Source: Bifidobacterium breve (GTDB lineage: Bacteria; Actinomycetota; Thermoleophilia; Solirubrobacterales; Solirubrobacteraceae). From it: a stretch of DNA of 64,000 nt. The notes under the pieces were generated by a model. That model had not been told where the DNA came from. It saw only the letters and a program-made list of their open reading frames with translations, and did no database searches. Numbering within the stretch: the stretch's first letter is position 1; each line of letters opens with the position of its first letter. Positions 20,787-29,817 of the stretch are shown here, piece after piece. Where the stretch lies: the NCBI GenBank assembly GCA_945878865.1, contig CAMCUD010000001.1, positions 248,001-312,000 of the forward strand. Direction: 5' to 3'. The translations under genes were made by a program, and so were the position numbers.

Positions 20787-21608
20787 ATGTCGGACATGTG
20801 GGAGAGCGTCGCGCCCGCGTGGGCCGAACAGGCCGCGTTCGTCGACGAGCACCTCGCCGCCGCGAGCGAGCGGCTCGTCGAGGTCGCCGGCATCACCGAG
20901 GGCGCCGCCGTGCTGGAGGTCGCCTGCGGCCCCGGCGGCGCGGGACTCGTGGCCGCCCGCCGGACCGGCCCGACCGGCTCGGTGCTGCTCTCCGACGACG
21001 CGCCGGGCATGGTCGCGGCAGCCGCCGAGCGCGCGGCCGACCTGCCGCACGTGGACACCGCGCTGTTCGTCCAGACCGCGATCGACAGCGACGACGACCG
21101 GTTCGACGCGGTCATCAGCCGCCACGGCCTGATGTTCGCCGAGCCGCCCGCCGCCGCGGTGCGTGAGGCCGCGCGCGTGACACGCCCCGGAGGCCGCGTC
21201 GCCGTGATGACCTGGGGTCCCCGCGAGGACAACCCGTGGCTCGCCGCGACGCTCGACGCCGTCGCCGACGAGTTCGGCGCGCCGTTTCCGCCACCCCACG
21301 TCCCTGGCCCGTTCGCCTTGGACTCCGAGGACGCGCTCGAGGCGGCGTTGACGGGCGGCGGGCTCGAGGACGTGACGGTCGAGCGCATCGACGCGCCGGT
21401 CACGCTCGCGTCGCTGGAGGAGTGGTGGCACCGGGTCCACCGGCTCGCCGGCCCGCTGGCCATCGCCATGGCGGCGATGCCCGACGAGCAGCGCAGAGCG
21501 ATCGAGCGGCGCGCGTTGGAGAAGGCCGAGCGGGCGGCGCGCACCGAGGGCCACGGCGTGACCCTCGGCGGGTGCGTGCTCGTCGGCTGCGGTCAGGCGC
21601 CGAGGTAG
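20787..21608 (+). CDS. Class I SAM-dependent methyltransferase
   Basis: 273 residues. Motif I AAVLEVACGPGGAG (about 45-58) binds S-adenosylmethionine; post-I acidic loop SVLLSDDAPGMV; motif II FDAVISRHGLMF; motif III VTRPGGRVAVMTWGP. This is the UbiE/COQ5-like small-molecule family (Methyltransf_11/25), typically acting on quinones, lipids or natural products; the substrate is not deducible. The start is set by the leaderless box upstream. Its 3' end overlaps the convergent coiled-coil gene by 16 bp. Confidence 0.85.
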   Translation: MSDMWESVAPAWAEQAAFVDEHLAAASERLVEVAGITEGAAVLEVACGPGGAGLVAARRTGPTGSVLLSDDAPGMVAAAAERAADLPHVDTALFVQTAIDSDDDRFDAVISRHGLMFAEPPAAAVREAARVTRPGGRVAVMTWGPREDNPWLAATLDAVADEFGAPFPPPHVPGPFALDSEDALEAALTGGGLEDVTVERIDAPVTLASLEEWWHRVHRLAGPLAIAMAAMPDEQRRAIERRALEKAERAARTEGHGVTLGGCVLVGCGQAPR

Positions 21609-22618
21609 ACGATCGGCTGGGCGATGCGGTCGCCCGAGATCGCGTAGATCGTCACCGGGATCGCGACCTGCCAGCGCAGGAGCACCGGCGCGCTCTTCGG
21701 GTTCGGCTGGACGAAGACCTTCGCCTTGCCCTTCTCGTCGACCCAGCCCGAGCCGGTGCCGAGCGTCTTGACCGGGATCTTCAGCTCCTTGCGCTGCTTC
21801 TCGGTCACGAGCGCGCGGACGAAGACCGGGCGGTTCGGCGGGCCGGTCACGTTGACCTGCAGGCCGCGCTGCAGCGTGGCGGTGCTCGGCACCGTGACGG
21901 TGAACGTCGTCGCCTCGAGCTTGAGCGCCTTGATCTGGCTGTCGGCCGCGGCCTTGGCCTTCGTCAGATCGTCCTTCTGCTTCGTCAGGTCCGCGATCTT
22001 CGTCTCGAGCGGCGCGGTGACGCCGGCGGCATTGACCGACGCCTTCGAGAGGACCGTGTCGGGCTTGACGAGCGTCCCGCCCAGGCCGGCGCACGCAGCG
22101 TTGAGGTCTGTCGACTCGGTGAGCGTGACCCCGGTGAGCTCCTTGACCTTCGCCAGCCACGCCGTCGGATCGTCACCGACGCCCGCGGACGTCGCCTGGA
22201 ACGGGATGTACCCGTACACCGGCTCGCTGCCCTGCCATGACAGCGCCGCGGCGCTCGTGTTCAGCGAGGCCACGTCGCACGTGGTGTGCAGCTGGGCGCC
22301 CGTCGCCCCCTCCGTCAGCCACCGCGTGGTCGGGAACAGCCCGCGGTAGGTCGAGGGCAGGACGTCGTAGTTGATGACGCCGCCGGTCGTCTTGCTGTTG
22401 CTCTCCGTGAGCGTGACCGGGTAGCCGTTGACGTTCACCGCGTAGCGGGTCTCGTCAGCGAGGTCGGCCTGCGTCCAGGACGCGGTCGGGGTCTGGCCCG
22501 CGGGGACGATCTTCGCCGTGGAAGAGAAGACCGACGGCGCCGCGGCTGCGGAGGCCGGCGCCGCGAGCGCGGCGAGGGCCACCGCCGCGGTGATGCGGCC
22601 GCGGTGGGTGCGTGTCAT
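21593..22618 (-). CDS. Exported protein with a central coiled coil, unknown function
   Basis: 341 residues from ATG 22618, chosen because AAGGAG lies about 10 nt upstream on the minus strand and a clean signal peptide follows (MTRTHRGRITAAVALAALAA, cleavage near APASAAAA). The mature N-terminal half is beta-rich with two Cys (TTCDVAS and NAACAGLG). A heptad-like coiled coil (about 205-240, KIADLTKQKDDLTKAKAAA) leads to a beta-rich C-terminal domain (VTGPPNRPVFVRALVTEKQR onward). It lies 97 bp downstream of the pst-linked operon on the same strand, with its own ribosome-binding site. No family recognised. Confidence 0.65.
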   Translation of the reverse strand: MTRTHRGRITAAVALAALAAPASAAAAPSVFSSTAKIVPAGQTPTASWTQADLADETRYAVNVNGYPVTLTESNSKTTGGVINYDVLPSTYRGLFPTTRWLTEGATGAQLHTTCDVASLNTSAAALSWQGSEPVYGYIPFQATSAGVGDDPTAWLAKVKELTGVTLTESTDLNAACAGLGGTLVKPDTVLSKASVNAAGVTAPLETKIADLTKQKDDLTKAKAAADSQIKALKLEATTFTVTVPSTATLQRGLQVNVTGPPNRPVFVRALVTEKQRKELKIPVKTLGTGSGWVDEKGKAKVFVQPNPKSAPVLLRWQVAIPVTIYAISGDRIAQPIVYLGA

Positions 22619-22714
22619 GGGGATGGTGCTCCTTGGTGTGTTGTGATGCTTCTTGGTCAAGAACTAGGAAATGTCGGTGCGCGACCCCGGGAGCGCCCAG
22701 GGAGACGCGGGCCC

Positions 22715-24091
22715 TCAGTCGTCCCCGGGCTCGATGACCCGCGCCGTGGCGAGGACCGTCGGGACGAGCGACGGCGCCTCCTTGGACTCCGCCAGCGCCT
22801 TGAGGCCCAGCGCGTCCTGCACGGTGCGCAGGAGTGCGTAGGGCCCGAGCTCGGTCTCATCCGTGCCGCCCGCCTTCACGTACCGGGAGAGGACGAGCGC
22901 GCCGTCGACGACCGGGGCGTCGGCCCCCGCCGGCGTCCCGGTGCCTCCCGCCGGCACGATGAGCAGCAGGCCGTCCGCCTTGTACGCCGGCGAGGCGAGG
23001 ATCTTCGGCACCCAGGTCTTCAGGAAGGCGTCGGTCGCCGCGAGACCGCCCGGCGACCCGTCGGCGCACGGGACGTCGCTGCCGTCGCTACACGCGCCCG
23101 GGGCGATCCAGCTCAGCGTCGGGGTGGACTTCTCCGTCTTGAGGTCCGCCTCGAGCGCGGTCAGCGGCCCCGCGTTGCTGTCGCAGTCCGACAGGTCGAT
23201 GAGCGAGCGGAAGTAGACGAACGGGACGTTGCGCGCGGCGTAGCCGTCGCCCGGGCGGCCCTTCTGCGTCTCGTCGACGGCGTTGGACTGGGGGCGGCGG
23301 CACTGGGTCGGCCCCTTCGGCCCCTTCTCCTGGTCCTCGGCGTAGGACTTCCACACCTGACCCGCGCCGGTGACCTGGTCGCCGATCGTCGTGACGGTGT
23401 TCGGGTAGACGCAGCCGTCCTGGGTGATGCGACCCTTGCCGTCGGGCTTCACCGACGCGGGGATCTCCTGGTAGGTCGCGCACTCGTTCTTCGTCGCGGC
23501 GTTCGGGGGCTGGCCGCTGATGAGCGCGATGCGGTCGGCGAGGCCGGCGCGACCGAGCGAGCTGTACTTGGTCAGCAGCGTGCCCTTCGCGCGCAGCTCC
23601 TTGGCCAGATACGGCGCCGCGGAGCTCACGCCGAACGTGGCATCGGCACCGTAGCCGGAGACCGTGATGACGAAGACGTGCTTGATCCGCGTCGGCTTCG
23701 GGGCGGTGCTGGCGGCAGACGTATCGGTGGTCGTTCCCGCCGTGTCGTCGTACTCGCCCACGTCGACGTTCGCGGCGTCCTCGCTCGCGGCGTCGGTCGT
23801 CGTGCCCGCGACGTCCCCGACGGCGTCGGCCGCGACGTCCGTCACCGCCGCGACGGTCGCCGTGTCGTCCGCCGCGGCGCCGCCGGCGTCGGCCTCGGTG
23901 TCGGCCGGCGCGGCGGCGTCCTGCGCGGGGGCGGCCTCGGTCGTGCCGACGGGCACTGCCGCACTGGCGGCAGTCTGCACCTGCTTGGCCAGGCCGCTGA
24001 GGTCCGGGGCCGCGCCCGCCCCGCCGACGAGGACGCCGGCGGTCGAGAGGACGGAGAGCACCGCGACCGCGATGAGGTGCACCGGGGTCAC
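22715..24091 (-). CDS. Phosphoesterase-family (PF04185-like) exported protein lacking catalytic motifs
   Basis: 458 residues: N-terminal membrane/signal segment (about 4-27), a disordered Ala/Asp/Thr-rich linker (about 45-130) and a domain (about 134-430) that follows bacterial phosphoesterases: RIKHVFVITVSGYG, PYLAKELRAKGTLLTKYSSL, IALISGQ, VWKSYAED, YAARNVPFVYFRS, GPYALLRTVQDALGL. Family catalytic positions are altered: EENHS becomes TVSGYG (143-148), SLPNY becomes LADR, HNPF becomes NVPF (288-291), the NDMHD region is CSDGSD (334-339), and TWDEG becomes VPAGG (379-383). It is the last gene of the pst-linked run, starting at an ATGA overlap. I infer a non-catalytic, possibly phosphate-ligand-binding role. 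Confidence 0.7.
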   Translation of the reverse strand: MTPVHLIAVAVLSVLSTAGVLVGGAGAAPDLSGLAKQVQTAASAAVPVGTTEAAPAQDAAAPADTEADAGGAAADDTATVAAVTDVAADAVGDVAGTTTDAASEDAANVDVGEYDDTAGTTTDTSAASTAPKPTRIKHVFVITVSGYGADATFGVSSAAPYLAKELRAKGTLLTKYSSLGRAGLADRIALISGQPPNAATKNECATYQEIPASVKPDGKGRITQDGCVYPNTVTTIGDQVTGAGQVWKSYAEDQEKGPKGPTQCRRPQSNAVDETQKGRPGDGYAARNVPFVYFRSLIDLSDCDSNAGPLTALEADLKTEKSTPTLSWIAPGACSDGSDVPCADGSPGGLAATDAFLKTWVPKILASPAYKADGLLLIVPAGGTGTPAGADAPVVDGALVLSRYVKAGGTDETELGPYALLRTVQDALGLKALAESKEAPSLVPTVLATARVIEPGDD

Positions 24092-24648
24092 GCCGGCGGT
24101 CCTCCATGCCCGTTCCCGTTCGCCGGCGCGTGGCCGTTGGCAAGCGGCAACTCGACCGTCGCGGCCGGCGGCACCGGCGGCTGGGCGACGGTGGGCTGGG
24201 CCTCGGGCGCCTCAGCGGCGGGCGCGGCGAGCTGGAGCACGTAGCCGCAGCGCGAGCAGAACCGCGCCTCCACCCCATGCCGCGCGCCGCAGCCCGGGCA
24301 CGTTCCGGCGACCGGGCCGTCGTCGCCGCGCAGCTGGCGCTCGACGTCGGCGAGCTCGTGGTCGACGCGCTGGAGCGCCGCAGCCTTCTGCGTGAGGACG
24401 TCGAGCCGGATGTGGTCGCGGATCGCCATCTCGTAGAAGATCCCGCCGAGCTCAGCCTGCTGAAGCGTGAACTGCTCGGTCAGCCGGTCGCGGCGCGCGA
24501 CGAGCTCGGCGTCCTGAGGCGCCGGCGCCGCTGGGGGCGCGGCCTGCTTGCGGGCCTGCTCGGCCGCCTTGTCGGCCGGGACCATCCCCTCCGGGACGTC
24601 GGCGCCGGAGCCGAAGCTCAGCTTGCCGGTGACGTCGCGGAGGCTCAC
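24088..24648 (-). CDS. Zinc-ribbon protein with helical N-terminal region
   Basis: 186 residues, no signal or membrane segment. A Pro/Ala-rich start leads to a helical, coiled-coil-like stretch (about 46-107, LVARRDRLTEQFTLQQAELG and AALQRVDHELADVERQL), a zinc ribbon with CPGCG and CSRCG (about 116-135), then a disordered tail with repeated Asn-Gly (ANGHAPANGNGHGG). Predicted cytosolic. It overlaps its neighbours by ATGA on both sides (upstream zinc-ribbon membrane protein, downstream dead phosphoesterase), so the three are translationally linked. The partner bound by the ribbon is unknown. Confidence 0.7.
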   Translation of the reverse strand: MSLRDVTGKLSFGSGADVPEGMVPADKAAEQARKQAAPPAAPAPQDAELVARRDRLTEQFTLQQAELGGIFYEMAIRDHIRLDVLTQKAAALQRVDHELADVERQLRGDDGPVAGTCPGCGARHGVEARFCSRCGYVLQLAAPAAEAPEAQPTVAQPPVPPAATVELPLANGHAPANGNGHGGPPA

Positions 24649-25319
24649 GGGACCACGATCTGGTCAGGCAGGTTGCGCTGCGAGTCCACGTACTCGTCGC
24701 CCTTGCTGCTGTTGATCTGCTTGACGGCGGCCTTGCTCTCCTCGAGATCCTTCTTCGTCGGCTTCGAGCCTTCGAGCTGGCGCGCGCTGCCGGTGGGGCC
24801 CGTCGCGAGGATCTTCGCCGGCTTCGTCGAGGTCTCGATCTTCGTCGGGTCGTCCTTGGCGTCCGCGGCCGCGTCCTTCGTGGCCGCAGACGCCGTGGCG
24901 TCCTCGGCGGGCGTGGCCGCCTGCGCGGTCGTCGCGGCTGCCACGGGCGCAGCCGCCGCGGAGGCCTGCTGCGCCTTCAGCGCGGCGAGGAGCGCCTCGT
25001 CGTTGGAGTTCGTGGTGCCGCGCCCGACGAGGATGCCGACCCCGGCGGCGACCGGCAGCAACGCGATGAGCCCAGCAGCCACGAGCGTGGGAACGGTGCC
25101 CTTGGTGCGCGCTCCGCCCGCGGCCGCAGCCGCCGGCTTCGGCCGCCGCGCCGCCGCGAACCACCGCGCGGCCGGATCGTCGGCGCGCCGCTGGTGCGCG
25201 CCGCACACCACGCAGAAGCGCTGCTGGTCGTCGACCGGGGAGCCGCAGCTGTCGCAGCGCTCCCACGGGGGCTTGGCGATCGGCGGGGTGGCCGCGATCG
25301 CCGGGTCGGTGATGGTCAT
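24645..25319 (-). CDS. Zinc-ribbon membrane protein with extracytoplasmic tail
   Basis: 224 residues. The N-terminal zinc ribbon has CDSCG and CVVCG (about 22-41). A basic spacer precedes one membrane helix (about 76-98, VPTLVAAGLIALLPVAAGVG), then an Ala/Thr/Asp-rich, Lys-rich extracytoplasmic region ending NLPDQIVVP. With the ribbon inside and the tail outside, it could relay between the cytosolic zinc-ribbon protein and the envelope proteins of the same operon. Its start is 10 nt after the lipoprotein gene stop; its end overlaps the next gene by 4 nt. Confidence 0.7.
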   Translation of the reverse strand: MTITDPAIAATPPIAKPPWERCDSCGSPVDDQQRFCVVCGAHQRRADDPAARWFAAARRPKPAAAAAGGARTKGTVPTLVAAGLIALLPVAAGVGILVGRGTTNSNDEALLAALKAQQASAAAAPVAAATTAQAATPAEDATASAATKDAAADAKDDPTKIETSTKPAKILATGPTGSARQLEGSKPTKKDLEESKAAVKQINSSKGDEYVDSQRNLPDQIVVP

Positions 25320-25329
25320 GTCGTGCTCC

Positions 25330-26058
25330 TCACTGGAAGATGGTGGGGACGGCGACGACGTCGAGCTTCGACGCCGCCGGGCGGCCGGCGAGGCGGACGG
25401 TGACCTCGCGCTGCTGATCGCGGTTCAGGCGCTCGACGGTGGCCGCGCCCGCCGCGACCACCCGCCCGCCGGCGCGCCCGACGGCGTAGACCTGCAGGCC
25501 GAACTGCGGGACGTCGGAGACGTTGTCGACGACCACGCGCGCCCGGGCGCCCGTCGGCCGCGTGAGCGCCGATGCCGTGATCTGCGGCAGCGCGTCGGTG
25601 CGCGTGACGACCTTGCCGCCCGGGACGCCGACCTTCGCGAACGCGGTGTCGCCCGCGCGCAGCGCACGACCCGGTGGGACCCGGAAGACCCACGTCGCGG
25701 CGCCGCGCGCCGGGATCGCGGGCAGGTGCCACTGGAACCACTCGAGCTCCTTGCCGGTGTTCAGCGCGACATACCGCTCCCCGCGGCGCACCCCGACCGT
25801 CACCGGCACGTCGGTCAGCGGCGCAACCGCACTGCTGCGGACGTCCACGACGACCGCCGCGCCGCGCGGCCCGCGGACGAGCTGCGCACCCGTCACCTGC
25901 ACGTCCGGGTTCGCCGTTTTCACCCGCTCGGGCTCGCGCGCGGCGATCTCCCGCTGCGCCGTGAGCTTCGCTCGCTCGTTGCGCGTCTGCGTCGAGTCGC
26001 AGCCGGCGAGCGCGAGCATGCCGAGGCCGGCGATCGCCATGGCGTTAGCCGAACGCAC
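25330..26058 (-). CDS. Lipoprotein with FxLYD-like beta domains, pst-linked
   Basis: 242 residues from GTG 26058, chosen over ATG 26040 because it adds an Arg before the hydrophobic core, as lipoprotein signals need. The lipobox is MLALAGC, followed by DSTQTRNER. Two beta-sandwich repeats follow: one ending in VFRVPPGRALRAGDTAFAKV, the other with VVVDNVSDVPQFGLQVYAVG and VTVRLAGRPAASKLDVVAVP, resembling FxLYD or CARDB folds used in extracellular protein contacts. The GTG start overlaps pstB by 14 bp. A role as the membrane-anchored extracellular part of a phosphate-linked complex is inference. Confidence 0.65.
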   Translation of the reverse strand: MRSANAMAIAGLGMLALAGCDSTQTRNERAKLTAQREIAAREPERVKTANPDVQVTGAQLVRGPRGAAVVVDVRSSAVAPLTDVPVTVGVRRGERYVALNTGKELEWFQWHLPAIPARGAATWVFRVPPGRALRAGDTAFAKVGVPGGKVVTRTDALPQITASALTRPTGARARVVVDNVSDVPQFGLQVYAVGRAGGRVVAAGAATVERLNRDQQREVTVRLAGRPAASKLDVVAVPTIFQ

Positions 26059-26935
26059 CGCTGATGTACTCCCTGGTCCGCTCCTGGCGCGGCGCGCCGA
26101 AGAGCTGCTCGGCCGGCCCGTACTCGACGAGCTCGCCGAGGTACATGAACGCGACGTAGTCGGCGATCCGGTGCGCCTGCTGGAGGTTGTGGGTGACGAT
26201 CACGACCGCCACCTCCTCGCGCAGCTGCACGATGAGGTCCTCGATGACCTTCGTCGACTGGGGGTCGAGCGCCGAGCACGGCTCGTCGAGCAGCAGCACC
26301 TCGGGATTCGCCGCGAGTGCCCGCGCGATGCACAGGCGCTGCTGCTGGCCGCCGGAGAGGCGCAGCGCAGGATGCGCGAGGTCACCCTTGACCTCCTCCC
26401 ACAGGCCCGCACGGCGCAGTGCGCTCTCGACCTGGCCCTTGAGGTCGCGCTTGCGCGGCCGGCGCGAGGCCTGCTCGCGCAGCACGAACGCGACGTTGTC
26501 GAACACGCTCATCGGGAACGGGTTCGGCTGCTGGAAGACCATCGTCACGCGCCGGCGCAGCGACGTGGGCTCGAAGCCCGCGATGTCGTCGCCGTCGAGC
26601 GTGATGCGCCCCTTAAGCGACGCCGTCTTCGTGAGCTCCGTCAGCCGGTTCAGCGAGCGCAGCAGCGTCGTCTTGCCGCAACCCGACGGGCCGATGAGGG
26701 CGAGCACCTCGCCTTGGCGGATCGGCAGCGAGACGCTGTCGACGGCGACCTTCGAGCCGTAGGCGATCGAGAGGTCCTCGACGGCCATCCGGTCGATCGC
26801 CAGCGACGACGGCGCCACCTTGCGGCCGGCCGAAACGAAGCCGTTGCCGTTGCCGTTCCCGTTGGGGACGACGACCTTCGGCTCCTCACCGGTGAGCGGG
26901 AGCGTGCGGACCGGCGGGGGGCTCAGGAACCCCAT
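26045..26935 (-). CDS. pstB: Phosphate ABC transporter ATP-binding protein
   Basis: 296 residues, about 40 longer than typical PstB because of a low-complexity N-terminal extension (VVVPNGNGNGNGFVSAGRK within residues 1-45). The ABC domain is complete: Walker A GPSGCGKTT, Q-loop FQQPNPFPMSVFDNV, signature LSGGQQQRLCIARAL, Walker B VLLLDEPCSALDP, H-loop VTHNL. VFQQPNPFPMSV is diagnostic of PstB. It energises phosphate import through PstCA. Start ATG 26935 has AAGGAG 6 nt upstream and overlaps the pstA end by 13 bp. Confidence 0.95.
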   Translation of the reverse strand: MGFLSPPPVRTLPLTGEEPKVVVPNGNGNGNGFVSAGRKVAPSSLAIDRMAVEDLSIAYGSKVAVDSVSLPIRQGEVLALIGPSGCGKTTLLRSLNRLTELTKTASLKGRITLDGDDIAGFEPTSLRRRVTMVFQQPNPFPMSVFDNVAFVLREQASRRPRKRDLKGQVESALRRAGLWEEVKGDLAHPALRLSGGQQQRLCIARALAANPEVLLLDEPCSALDPQSTKVIEDLIVQLREEVAVVIVTHNLQQAHRIADYVAFMYLGELVEYGPAEQLFGAPRQERTREYISGAFG

Positions 26936-27876
26936 GTGAGTCTCCTTCCTCGGCGGACCACGAAGTCCATGACGACGTTGAGCACCAGCACGAGCGAGAG
27001 CAGGACGAATGCGGCGGCGTACGCCTTCTCCGGCTGGTTGGCCTCGCCCGTGGGGGCGTTCTGGAACACGAAGCTCGTGAGCGTGCTGCCGGTGCCGCGC
27101 GCCTCGCCGAGGAAGCCCTCGGCCGGGTTGATTCGCAGGGTGGCGCCGAGCAGGAGGATGATCACCGCGGTGTCGCCGACCACGCGGCCCACGCCGAGCA
27201 TCGCGCCCGTGACGACCGACGGCCGTGCGGCGGGGAGCAGGACGCGACGGGTCGTCGCCCACTTCGTCTTGCCCACGGCGTAGGACGCCTCGCGCACGTG
27301 GCCGGGGATCGCCTGCAGGCCCTCGCGCACGTTGGCGACGACGAGCGGCAGCGCGATGAGCGACAGCATCGCGGCCGCGGCGAAGAACGACCGGCCGAAC
27401 ACGATCCCCTCGTTCTTCTGGCTGAACGCGGCGAGCACCGGGCTCTGGAACAGCAGCACGCCGAAGAGCGCGAAGACGATCGACGGCGTGCCGGCAAGCA
27501 TCTCGACGGTCGACTCCGTCAGGCGCGCCAGCCAGGTCGGCCGGCCGTACTCGCTGAGCCACACGCCGACTCCGAGGCCGACCGGAAACGCGATCGCCAT
27601 GGCCATCGCGGTGACCTGCAACGTCCCGATGAGCGGATCGAGGAATCCCCCGGTCTCGCTCTCGCTGAAGCCCGCCGACGGGGACGTGACGAAGTACTCC
27701 GGCTTGACGAACCGGATGCCCTGGACCATGAGGTAGATGACGATGCCGACCGTCACGACGAGGAAGAGCAGCCCGAGGAACCACGCGAACGCGAGGCCGA
27801 GGCGGTCGGTCCACCGCCAAGACGAGGAGGAGTCGCGCGCGCTGCGGCGCGCGGTGGGGGTCTGCGCCACGGCCAT
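26923..27876 (-). CDS. pstA: Phosphate ABC transporter permease PstA
   Basis: 317 residues with about six membrane helices, the first after a Ser/Arg-rich cytosolic start (WFLGLLFLVVTVGIVIYLMV). The permease EAA-type loop is seen in VREGLQAIPGHVREASYAVG with KTKWATTRRVLLPAA, which contacts PstB. STVEMLAGTPSIVFALFG and VVGDTAVIILLLGA are typical of PstA. It forms the membrane channel with PstC. The ATG overlaps the pstC stop as TAATG. Confidence 0.95.
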   Translation of the reverse strand: MAVAQTPTARRSARDSSSSWRWTDRLGLAFAWFLGLLFLVVTVGIVIYLMVQGIRFVKPEYFVTSPSAGFSESETGGFLDPLIGTLQVTAMAMAIAFPVGLGVGVWLSEYGRPTWLARLTESTVEMLAGTPSIVFALFGVLLFQSPVLAAFSQKNEGIVFGRSFFAAAAMLSLIALPLVVANVREGLQAIPGHVREASYAVGKTKWATTRRVLLPAARPSVVTGAMLGVGRVVGDTAVIILLLGATLRINPAEGFLGEARGTGSTLTSFVFQNAPTGEANQPEKAYAAAFVLLSLVLVLNVVMDFVVRRGRRLTWGS

Positions 27877-28880
27877 TAGGCACGCACCCCGTACTTCTTC
27901 ATCGGCTGCTTGGCGACCCACCCGGCGAACGACAGGAACAGCGAGCTGAACAGCAGCAGCGACGCCATCGCGAAGATCGTGTCGCGCATCGGCGGCGACG
28001 TGAGCTCCTCTGACGCCTGCAGGATCGCGGCGGGGATCGGCTTGGCGGGCTCGACGAAGAAGATGAGCCCGTCCTTCGGGTTGGGCGCGAAGCCCACGCC
28101 GCCGCAGACCATCGCCAGCATGATCGACTCGCCGATCGCCCGGGCCGTCGCGAGCACCGTCCCGGCGATGAGCGCCGGCCGCGCGGTGCGCACCCCGATC
28201 TTCCAGAAGGTGCGCCAGCGGTTCACGCCGAGGCCCAGCGCGCCCTCCAGCCAGTTGCGCGGCACGCTGCGCAGCCCGTCGACGAACACCGCGATCATGA
28301 GCGGCGCGATCATGAGGCTGAGGATCAGCACGCCCGCCAGAACGCTGTAGCCGCTCAGCGAGATGATGTACGAGACCTCGCGCCGGCTGTCGTCGCTGAT
28401 GATGTGGTTGCCGATGAACGGCACGAGGACGAGGACGCCGACGAGGCCGAGGATCACCGACGGCACGCTGGCGAGGAGGCGGATGATCGGCTCGAGGATC
28501 CGCCGCATCCAGTCCGGCGCGAACTCGACGACGAAGACGCTGACGAACAGCGCAGAGACGAAGCTGATCGACACCGCGAGCGTCGTGATGACGATCGTGC
28601 TCCAGATGATCGGCCACGCGCGGAACTCGTAGACCGGCTCTTGGAGCAGGTTCGCCGACATGAAGATCTTCTCGACCTGCCGATCGAAGTCGTCCGGATT
28701 GGCGAACCACAGCAGGCCGTTCTCCCGGAACGACGGCCAGGCCTCGCGGAACACGAAGACGATGAGGAAGAGGACGAACAGCAGGACGGCGACGACCAGC
28801 GCGCCGAGCAGGAACTCGGCGCGCCGGTCGGACCGCAGGGCCCGCTGGCCGGCGTCGAGATGGTGGGTCTCGGTGGCCAT
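27876..28880 (-). CDS. pstC: Phosphate ABC transporter permease PstC
   Basis: 334 residues. The first helix (about 23-46) is FLLGALVVAVLLFVLFLIVF, followed by a periplasmic-side loop (about 50-95) and five more helices. The EAA-type loop is VDGLRSVPRNWLEGALGLGV with NRWRTFWKIGVRTARPAL, and LASVPSVILGLVGVLVLVPF and ATARAIGESIMLAMV are characteristic PstC segments. It pairs with PstA. The gap to pstS is 11 nt. Confidence 0.95.
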   Translation of the reverse strand: MATETHHLDAGQRALRSDRRAEFLLGALVVAVLLFVLFLIVFVFREAWPSFRENGLLWFANPDDFDRQVEKIFMSANLLQEPVYEFRAWPIIWSTIVITTLAVSISFVSALFVSVFVVEFAPDWMRRILEPIIRLLASVPSVILGLVGVLVLVPFIGNHIISDDSRREVSYIISLSGYSVLAGVLILSLMIAPLMIAVFVDGLRSVPRNWLEGALGLGVNRWRTFWKIGVRTARPALIAGTVLATARAIGESIMLAMVCGGVGFAPNPKDGLIFFVEPAKPIPAAILQASEELTSPPMRDTIFAMASLLLFSSLFLSFAGWVAKQPMKKYGVRA

Positions 28881-28891
28881 CGGGGTCCGGG

Positions 28892-29743
28892 CTACTTCTT
28901 CTTCTTCTTGCTCTTCTTCGTGGCGTTGAACGCCGGGACCGCGCCGAGCTTGTCGATGATCACGCCCGCTTCGTAGCTCGACCGGATCCAGTCACCGAAC
29001 TTCAGCGCCTCCTTGCTCGGGTTCGTCGCCGACGTGACGAGCCACGCGTAGCGCGAGAGCGGGTACTTCAGCGACTTGATCGTCGCCTGCGTCGGCGGGA
29101 TGCCGTTGAGCGAGAGGCGCTTGACGCCGCTGGCGGGCTTGGAGTTCGCCAGGCCGACGTAGCCGATGCCCTGCGGGTTCTTCGAGACCGCGACGGCGAC
29201 CTCACCGTCCTTGTCGAGCGGGGTGACGTTCGTGCCGTGCGCCTCGCCGTCGAGGACGGCGGAGGTGAAGAACGTGTAGAGGCCGGCGGTCGACGGGCGG
29301 CCGAAGGCGGCGATGGGCTGACTGAAGCCAGAGTTCGGGAAGGCCGACCACTCGGTGACCTTGCCGGTGAAGATGTCCTTGACCTGGCTGACCTGCAGGT
29401 CGTTGAGCTTGTTCGCCGGGTTGACCGAGATCGTGAGCGCGTCGAGGAACAGCTTGGAGTACGCCAGGCCGGAGTCGGAGGGCAGCGGCGGACGGGTCTG
29501 GATGGCGAAGGCGCTACGACCGGCCTGAACGTCCTTCGCCCCGGCGTTGCCGTTGTTCGGCAGGTACGTGATCTTCACGTTCGGGTTGACCTTCTTGTAG
29601 CCCTTGGCCAGCGCCTCGACGTACGGAGTGCTGGCGCTCGAGCCGGAGCCCGCGAGCGTGATCGCCGCCTGCGCGCTCGCCGGCAGGGCGGCGAGCCCGG
29701 CGGCCGCGGCGAGCGTGGCCGCGACCTTCGTCCTCTTCTTCAT
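28892..29743 (-). CDS. pstS: Phosphate-binding protein PstS, secreted type with poly-lysine tail
   Basis: 283 residues from ATG 29743 (AAGAGGG upstream). Signal peptide 1-26 ends PASAQA; there is no lipobox and no cysteine anywhere, whereas Gram-positive PstS proteins are normally lipoproteins. The binding-protein core shows LAGSGSSASTPYVEALAKGY (phosphate loop), DIFTGKVTEWS, NPQGIGYVGLA and PLSRYAWLVTS. The C-terminus reads NATKKSKKKKK, encoded by a CTT-rich stretch. It delivers phosphate to PstCA. The basic tail may hold it to anionic wall polymers in place of a lipid anchor (inference). Confidence 0.93.
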   Translation of the reverse strand: MKKRTKVAATLAAAAGLAALPASAQAAITLAGSGSSASTPYVEALAKGYKKVNPNVKITYLPNNGNAGAKDVQAGRSAFAIQTRPPLPSDSGLAYSKLFLDALTISVNPANKLNDLQVSQVKDIFTGKVTEWSAFPNSGFSQPIAAFGRPSTAGLYTFFTSAVLDGEAHGTNVTPLDKDGEVAVAVSKNPQGIGYVGLANSKPASGVKRLSLNGIPPTQATIKSLKYPLSRYAWLVTSATNPSKEALKFGDWIRSSYEAGVIIDKLGAVPAFNATKKSKKKKK

Positions 29744-29811
29744 GCGTCCCTCTTTCGTGAAAGCCCGGGCGCCCGCTGGGGTCGGGCGCTCCAATCTCGT
29801 ATTCCCGATCA

Positions 29812-29817
29812 ACTTTA
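29812..29817 (-). promoter_or_regulatory. Probable -10 box of the pst operon
   Basis: On the minus strand TAAAGT lies directly downstream of the 29-bp dyad. Transcription would start near 29805, giving a leader of about 62 nt with a ribosome-binding site. No consensus -35 is present; the dyad occupies that place, as expected for an activator-dependent promoter. Confidence 0.4.

Follow-up and report, generated by a model that had tools for sequence, protein, structure and literature searches.

The window, i.e., the whole stretch of 64,000 nucleotides analyzed here, carries on its minus strand an operon for Pst, one of the best-studied nutrient importers. The last gene of this operon encodes a protein with the fold of the phosphatase AcpA in which all catalytic residues are replaced. 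With a probability of roughly 60%, this protein is a membrane-anchored, extracytoplasmic pseudophosphatase of the PF04185 family that has been retained as a non-enzymatic part of the Pst operon in the Solirubrobacterales, an order of soil actinobacteria. The operon comprises eight co-directional genes (pstS-pstC-pstA-pstB-LP242-ZR224-ZR186-pseudophosphatase), and neighboring genes either overlap or are separated by gaps of at most approximately 12 bases. The overlaps suggest that the genes are read as one transcript; a scan for sigma-70 promoters and terminators in this GC-rich DNA yielded nothing useful. The genes are:

28892..29812, minus strand: pstS, phosphate-binding protein (PF12849, E 1.2e-29)
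27876..28880, minus strand: pstC, permease (PF00528)
26923..27885 (start approximate), minus strand: pstA, permease (matches across related pst operons)
26045..26980 (start approximate), minus strand: pstB, ATPase of the phosphate ATP-binding cassette (ABC) importer (PF00005)
25330..26058, minus strand: LP242, putative lipoprotein with a lipobox (LAGC) read from the sequence; homologues lie at the same place in other genera
24645..25319, minus strand: ZR224, N-terminal zinc ribbon (CDSC...CVVC), one transmembrane helix and a tail beyond it (profile match)
24088..24648, minus strand: ZR186, predicted to be cytoplasmic, with a C-terminal zinc ribbon (CPGC...CSRC); overlaps the pseudophosphatase gene by 4 bases
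22715..24091, minus strand: pseudophosphatase (PHOS), 458 amino acids; anchor, linker and AcpA-fold domain, catalytic residues all replaced

The pseudophosphatase gene starts with a GTG that overlaps the upstream stop codon as GTGA. The GC content at its third codon positions (0.963) matches the expectation for real genes in such DNA, which supports the open reading frame as a real one. A hydrophobic anchor (approximately residues 5-27) is followed by a low-complexity linker, roughly 100 residues long, and by the AcpA-fold domain (approximately residues 131-450). PF04185 is matched with 25.6 bits, narrowly above the Pfam cut-off of 23, so that the protein counts as a member, and one catalytic paralogue scores 82.8. 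This gene is the single PF04185 match in its genome, and all 13 of the pst-type relatives are matched by the family at E<=0.01. A search of the PDB sequences with the single protein sequence returned chance matches to serum amyloid A only. An AlphaFold2 model of the domain, computed with 54 relatives as input, reached a mean predicted local distance difference test (pLDDT) of 92.6 and a predicted template modeling score (pTM) of 0.92. In structural alignments of this model AcpA ranked first (Z 27.1, root-mean-square deviation 3.1, 280 residues aligned), followed by non-specific phospholipases C and then by sulfatases and nucleotide pyrophosphatase/phosphodiesterase (NPP) enzymes of the same superfamily. 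The domain is thus assigned to the AcpA-type fold of the alkaline phosphatase superfamily, and a preliminary description of this DNA, made from the sequence alone, was right that the fold is readable along the whole protein. Fold, export and the passed Pfam cut-off are what the protein has in common with PF04185 acid phosphatases such as AcpA of Francisella and SapM of Mycobacterium.

For SapM, single mutants of E59, N60, S95, H160, H204, D238, and E239 each abolish activity (PMC6635428), and the corresponding set in plant NPC4 consists of E23, N24, H79, T158, H264, D299, and E300 (PMC9837106). The correspondence to SapM and AcpA was set by the published roles of the residues together with the order and spacing of the motifs. 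In the seven corresponding columns, catalytic paralogues from the same order read ENSHHDE, whereas the window protein reads SGGNSAG and therefore contains none of the residues essential in SapM. The motif replacements listed in the preliminary description were confirmed, namely E145>S and N146>G in TVSGYG, H288>N in NVPF, H338>S in CSDGSD, and D381>A and E382>G in VPAGG. Its claim of a loss at every catalytic position was even understated: it had missed the nucleophile serine, which is replaced by glycine at position 183 (in relatives Asp, Gly, Pro and others), and H181>R as well as the third conserved histidine, H417>P, are further losses. Accordingly, the E-N and D-E metal ligands of an active AcpA/SapM-type phosphatase (here S145 G146 and A381 G382), its Ser/Thr nucleophile (G183), and its substrate-binding histidines (N288, S338; also P417) are all absent. 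Judged by these residues, the protein should be unable to use the Ser/metal mechanism of its family and is presumably inactive.

Homologues were collected from 232 genomes of the order, from a scan of a collection of species genomes and from regions fetched around matches. A scan of genome contigs with one sequence recovered no relative, but an alignment-based scan did. Among 176 distinct near-complete domains, 100 retain all seven catalytic residues and 75 retain 0-2 of them, the remaining row, which is truncated, scoring 5. With 75 homologues sharing the loss, 100 intact ones and nearly no intermediates, this pattern goes beyond chance. When the catalytic columns were removed before tree building (a quick tree with the Shimodaira-Hasegawa-like approximate likelihood ratio test, SH-aLRT, as its one support measure), a single branch (SH-aLRT 96) separated all 73 degenerate rows from the rest; the window protein sits in a subclade of 23 rows with a support of 100, referred to below as clade A. 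The catalytic loss is a single ancestral event, requiring one change on the tree. Degenerate proteins were found in Solirubrobacterales only; a spread beyond the order was considered and rejected, as the sampled, scorable homologues from outside are all catalytic.

The degenerate genes are also set apart by their genomic position. Gene order is identical to that of the window operon in seven other genomes (G195, G087, G086, G085, G161, G159, and G111) and is kept in three more in which LP242 was not detected (G048, G041, and G037), so that a co-directional adjacency of the pseudophosphatase gene to pstSCAB is conserved. Elsewhere in the order, the degenerate gene either lies upstream of pstS and points the other way, or has a pst-like ABC transporter and the zinc-ribbon genes as neighbors. 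In the sample of the order, 34 of 72 degenerate genes are linked to pst genes and 29 more to ZR186, i.e., 63/72 in total, compared with none of the 32 catalytic paralogues (Fisher p 5e-19); this linkage is a further difference from the catalytic members of the AcpA/SapM family in the order. All nine unlinked degenerate genes lie on short or contig-end stretches. In the genus g11 (L048, L049, L051, L132, L133, L136, L151), pseudophosphatases of the sister clade, in which the nucleophile serine is replaced by Gly or Ala, are found near pst genes and run opposite to them in L048, L049 and L051, the loci whose orientation was read. Outside the order, a Frankiales bacterium carries a fully catalytic PF04185 gene (L124:8851-10038) near pst genes, possibly a picture of the ancestral arrangement.

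The preliminary description had further proposed that the intact scaffold reflects selection for binding rather than decay. The second half of this proposal, that the protein is not decaying, holds. After the single ancestral loss the gene was retained in its operon position across genera, the start codon still overlaps the upstream stop, and the fold is predicted to be intact. Within the degenerate clades, six cysteines (204, 227, 264, 303, 334, and 342) are each conserved to 96% or more, as would fit three disulfides, and 35 of the 59 columns with a conservation of at least 95% among catalytic proteins remain at least 90% conserved in clade A. The ratio of non-synonymous to synonymous substitution rates (dN/dS) was estimated by a simple counting method, crude in high-GC genomes, for the ten closest pairs per group and ranged from 0.15 to 0.54 in clade A, from 0.07 to 0.28 in its sister clade and from 0.09 to 0.23 in catalytic paralogues, i.e., below 1 in close pairs. 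Random decay was rejected on these grounds, and it appears unlikely, too, that the gene is a relic under relaxed selection which is carried along in the operon and heading to loss, given its old loss of catalytic residues, its subsequent retention across families of the order, and its conserved cysteines and scaffold.

Several points nevertheless weigh against a maintained pseudophosphatase. The dN/dS values of clade A exceed those of the catalytic paralogues, a sign of some relaxation. Moreover, the gene may be dispensable in places: the orthologue of S. abyssi J379, a genus-mate (L053 ~9630; also L005 ~1507), is split by a frameshift in the stretch GCGCGCGGGGGAGG, which may be either a sequencing error or a real disruption, and a third genome from the genus Svornostia gave no match to the gene. 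These are also the observations that a relic would explain. A further point is the precedent of YejM/PbgA, an alkaline-phosphatase-superfamily membrane regulator of lipopolysaccharide (LPS) synthesis, whose catalytic residues had been regarded as misplaced (PMC7773988) and which was later reported with Mg-dependent phosphatase activity (PMC7576196). Together with the two aspartates retained in CSDGSD (336 and 339), this case would speak for a protein that has remained enzymatic, its cleft using a different metal site or another chemistry. Such an enzyme is very improbable, however, since the protein has lost its nucleophile, every metal ligand and both substrate histidines, and an alternative metal site, sought as new conserved Asp/Glu/His/Cys columns, was not found in clade A.

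The last point concerns the former active site itself. In clade A, the variability of the seven former catalytic columns ranges from average to the highest (entropy percentile 0.47-1.0), the replaced residues are not conserved among its members, and no new conserved Asp, Glu or His site replacing them was found there. Consequently, no specific ligand can be named. In the sister clade, by contrast, the pocket was recast coherently, with Arg at 288 (86%), Asp at 381 (80%), His at 417 (86%), and Gln at 382 (60%), which makes ligand binding by this pocket plausible for that clade. The proposed selection for binding is therefore only half supported: it is plausible for the sister clade with its retained R288, D381 and H417, and not borne out for the pocket of clade A. 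The same observations bear on a ligand-binding receptor whose old cleft would capture, but not cleave, phosphate, its esters or a phosphate-rich wall polymer and deliver it or report it to Pst. The consistent pocket of the sister clade and the genomic linkage to phosphate import favor such a receptor, but with the drift of the catalytic columns in clade A and no new polar site conserved there it stays a tentative alternative. As the old pocket drifts in clade A, a structural or partner-binding role is likelier there than the binding of a ligand in the cleft.

Additional information on the role of the pseudophosphatase comes from its zinc-ribbon neighbors. The motif CxxC...DQRYCxxC is present upstream of the transmembrane helix and in the same frame as the dead domain in 36 of 50 sister-clade proteins, whereas it occurs in none of the 23 clade A proteins, in none of 49 catalytic proteins and never in shuffled sequences. 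A profile of this N-terminal segment matches ZR224 of the window (30.9 bits, E 1.2e-7 at Z=5000). Most of the aligned segment is the zinc ribbon, so the match speaks for ZR224 as the split-off half of the fused protein but falls short of proof.

For the maintained pseudophosphatase, the dead domain would most likely be an outward-facing structural or partner-binding module, with PstS, the lipoprotein LP242 or a wall component as candidate partners. It would act together with the transmembrane ZR224 and the cytoplasmic ZR186, the zinc ribbons lying inside, and the trio might couple events outside the membrane to the importer, possibly through physical contact with Pst, or to signaling inside. 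A possible, still speculative extension is an order-wide class of transmembrane receptors, composed of a dead phosphatase domain on the outside, a single transmembrane helix and a zinc ribbon in the cytoplasm, which controls or assists the Pst importer and which would be fused in one clade and split into two adjacent genes in clade A. YejM/PbgA offers a precedent for how such a protein could work, as it likewise combines a membrane-anchored alkaline-phosphatase-fold domain with a regulatory role. It differs in its arylsulfatase/LtaS-like subfamily, its five transmembrane helices, its partner LapB and its reported phosphatase activity, and no common ancestry with the window protein is claimed below the superfamily.

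The pst genes of the window are ordinary when compared with the known PstSCAB operon with PhoU, except that phoU is absent from the operon and located elsewhere in the same genome (G000:C2:121182). The zinc-ribbon genes were considered as a replacement of PhoU, which was rejected: of 151 genomes from the order, 140 have PhoU, and the extra operon genes hence do not stand in for it. Next to the operon, positions 21593-22660 encode a secreted protein of 355 amino acids and of no known family. In S. abyssi (L032:1589-2668) and in Conexibacter (L035:15375-16322), homologues of it lie upstream of pstS, which links this protein to pst as well. A second pst operon of the window genome (contig C2) contains a zinc-ribbon/transmembrane protein (L262:8072-8989) whose C-terminal end looks SPOR-like by eye, and the gene following ZR186 there (L262:4675-7764) appears, also by eye, to encode a large cell-wall hydrolase with transglycosylase and peptidase-like parts, hinting at a tie between phosphate import and the cell wall.

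The PF04185/AcpA fold and ordinary pst genes are known. The conserved Pst-linked pseudophosphatase appears to be new: neither such a protein nor any other phosphatase-fold non-enzyme belonging to Pst was found described in the open-access literature searched. Genes of this kind match a Pfam phosphatase family and yet should not be annotated as phosphatases. A dead phosphatase kept in the operon of a phosphate importer across an order provides a clear test case for the reuse of pseudoenzymes, which is sharpened by the zinc-ribbon partner whose like is fused to the dead domain in the sister clade. The Pst-linked pseudophosphatase may thereby reveal an unrecognized layer of phosphate sensing or uptake.
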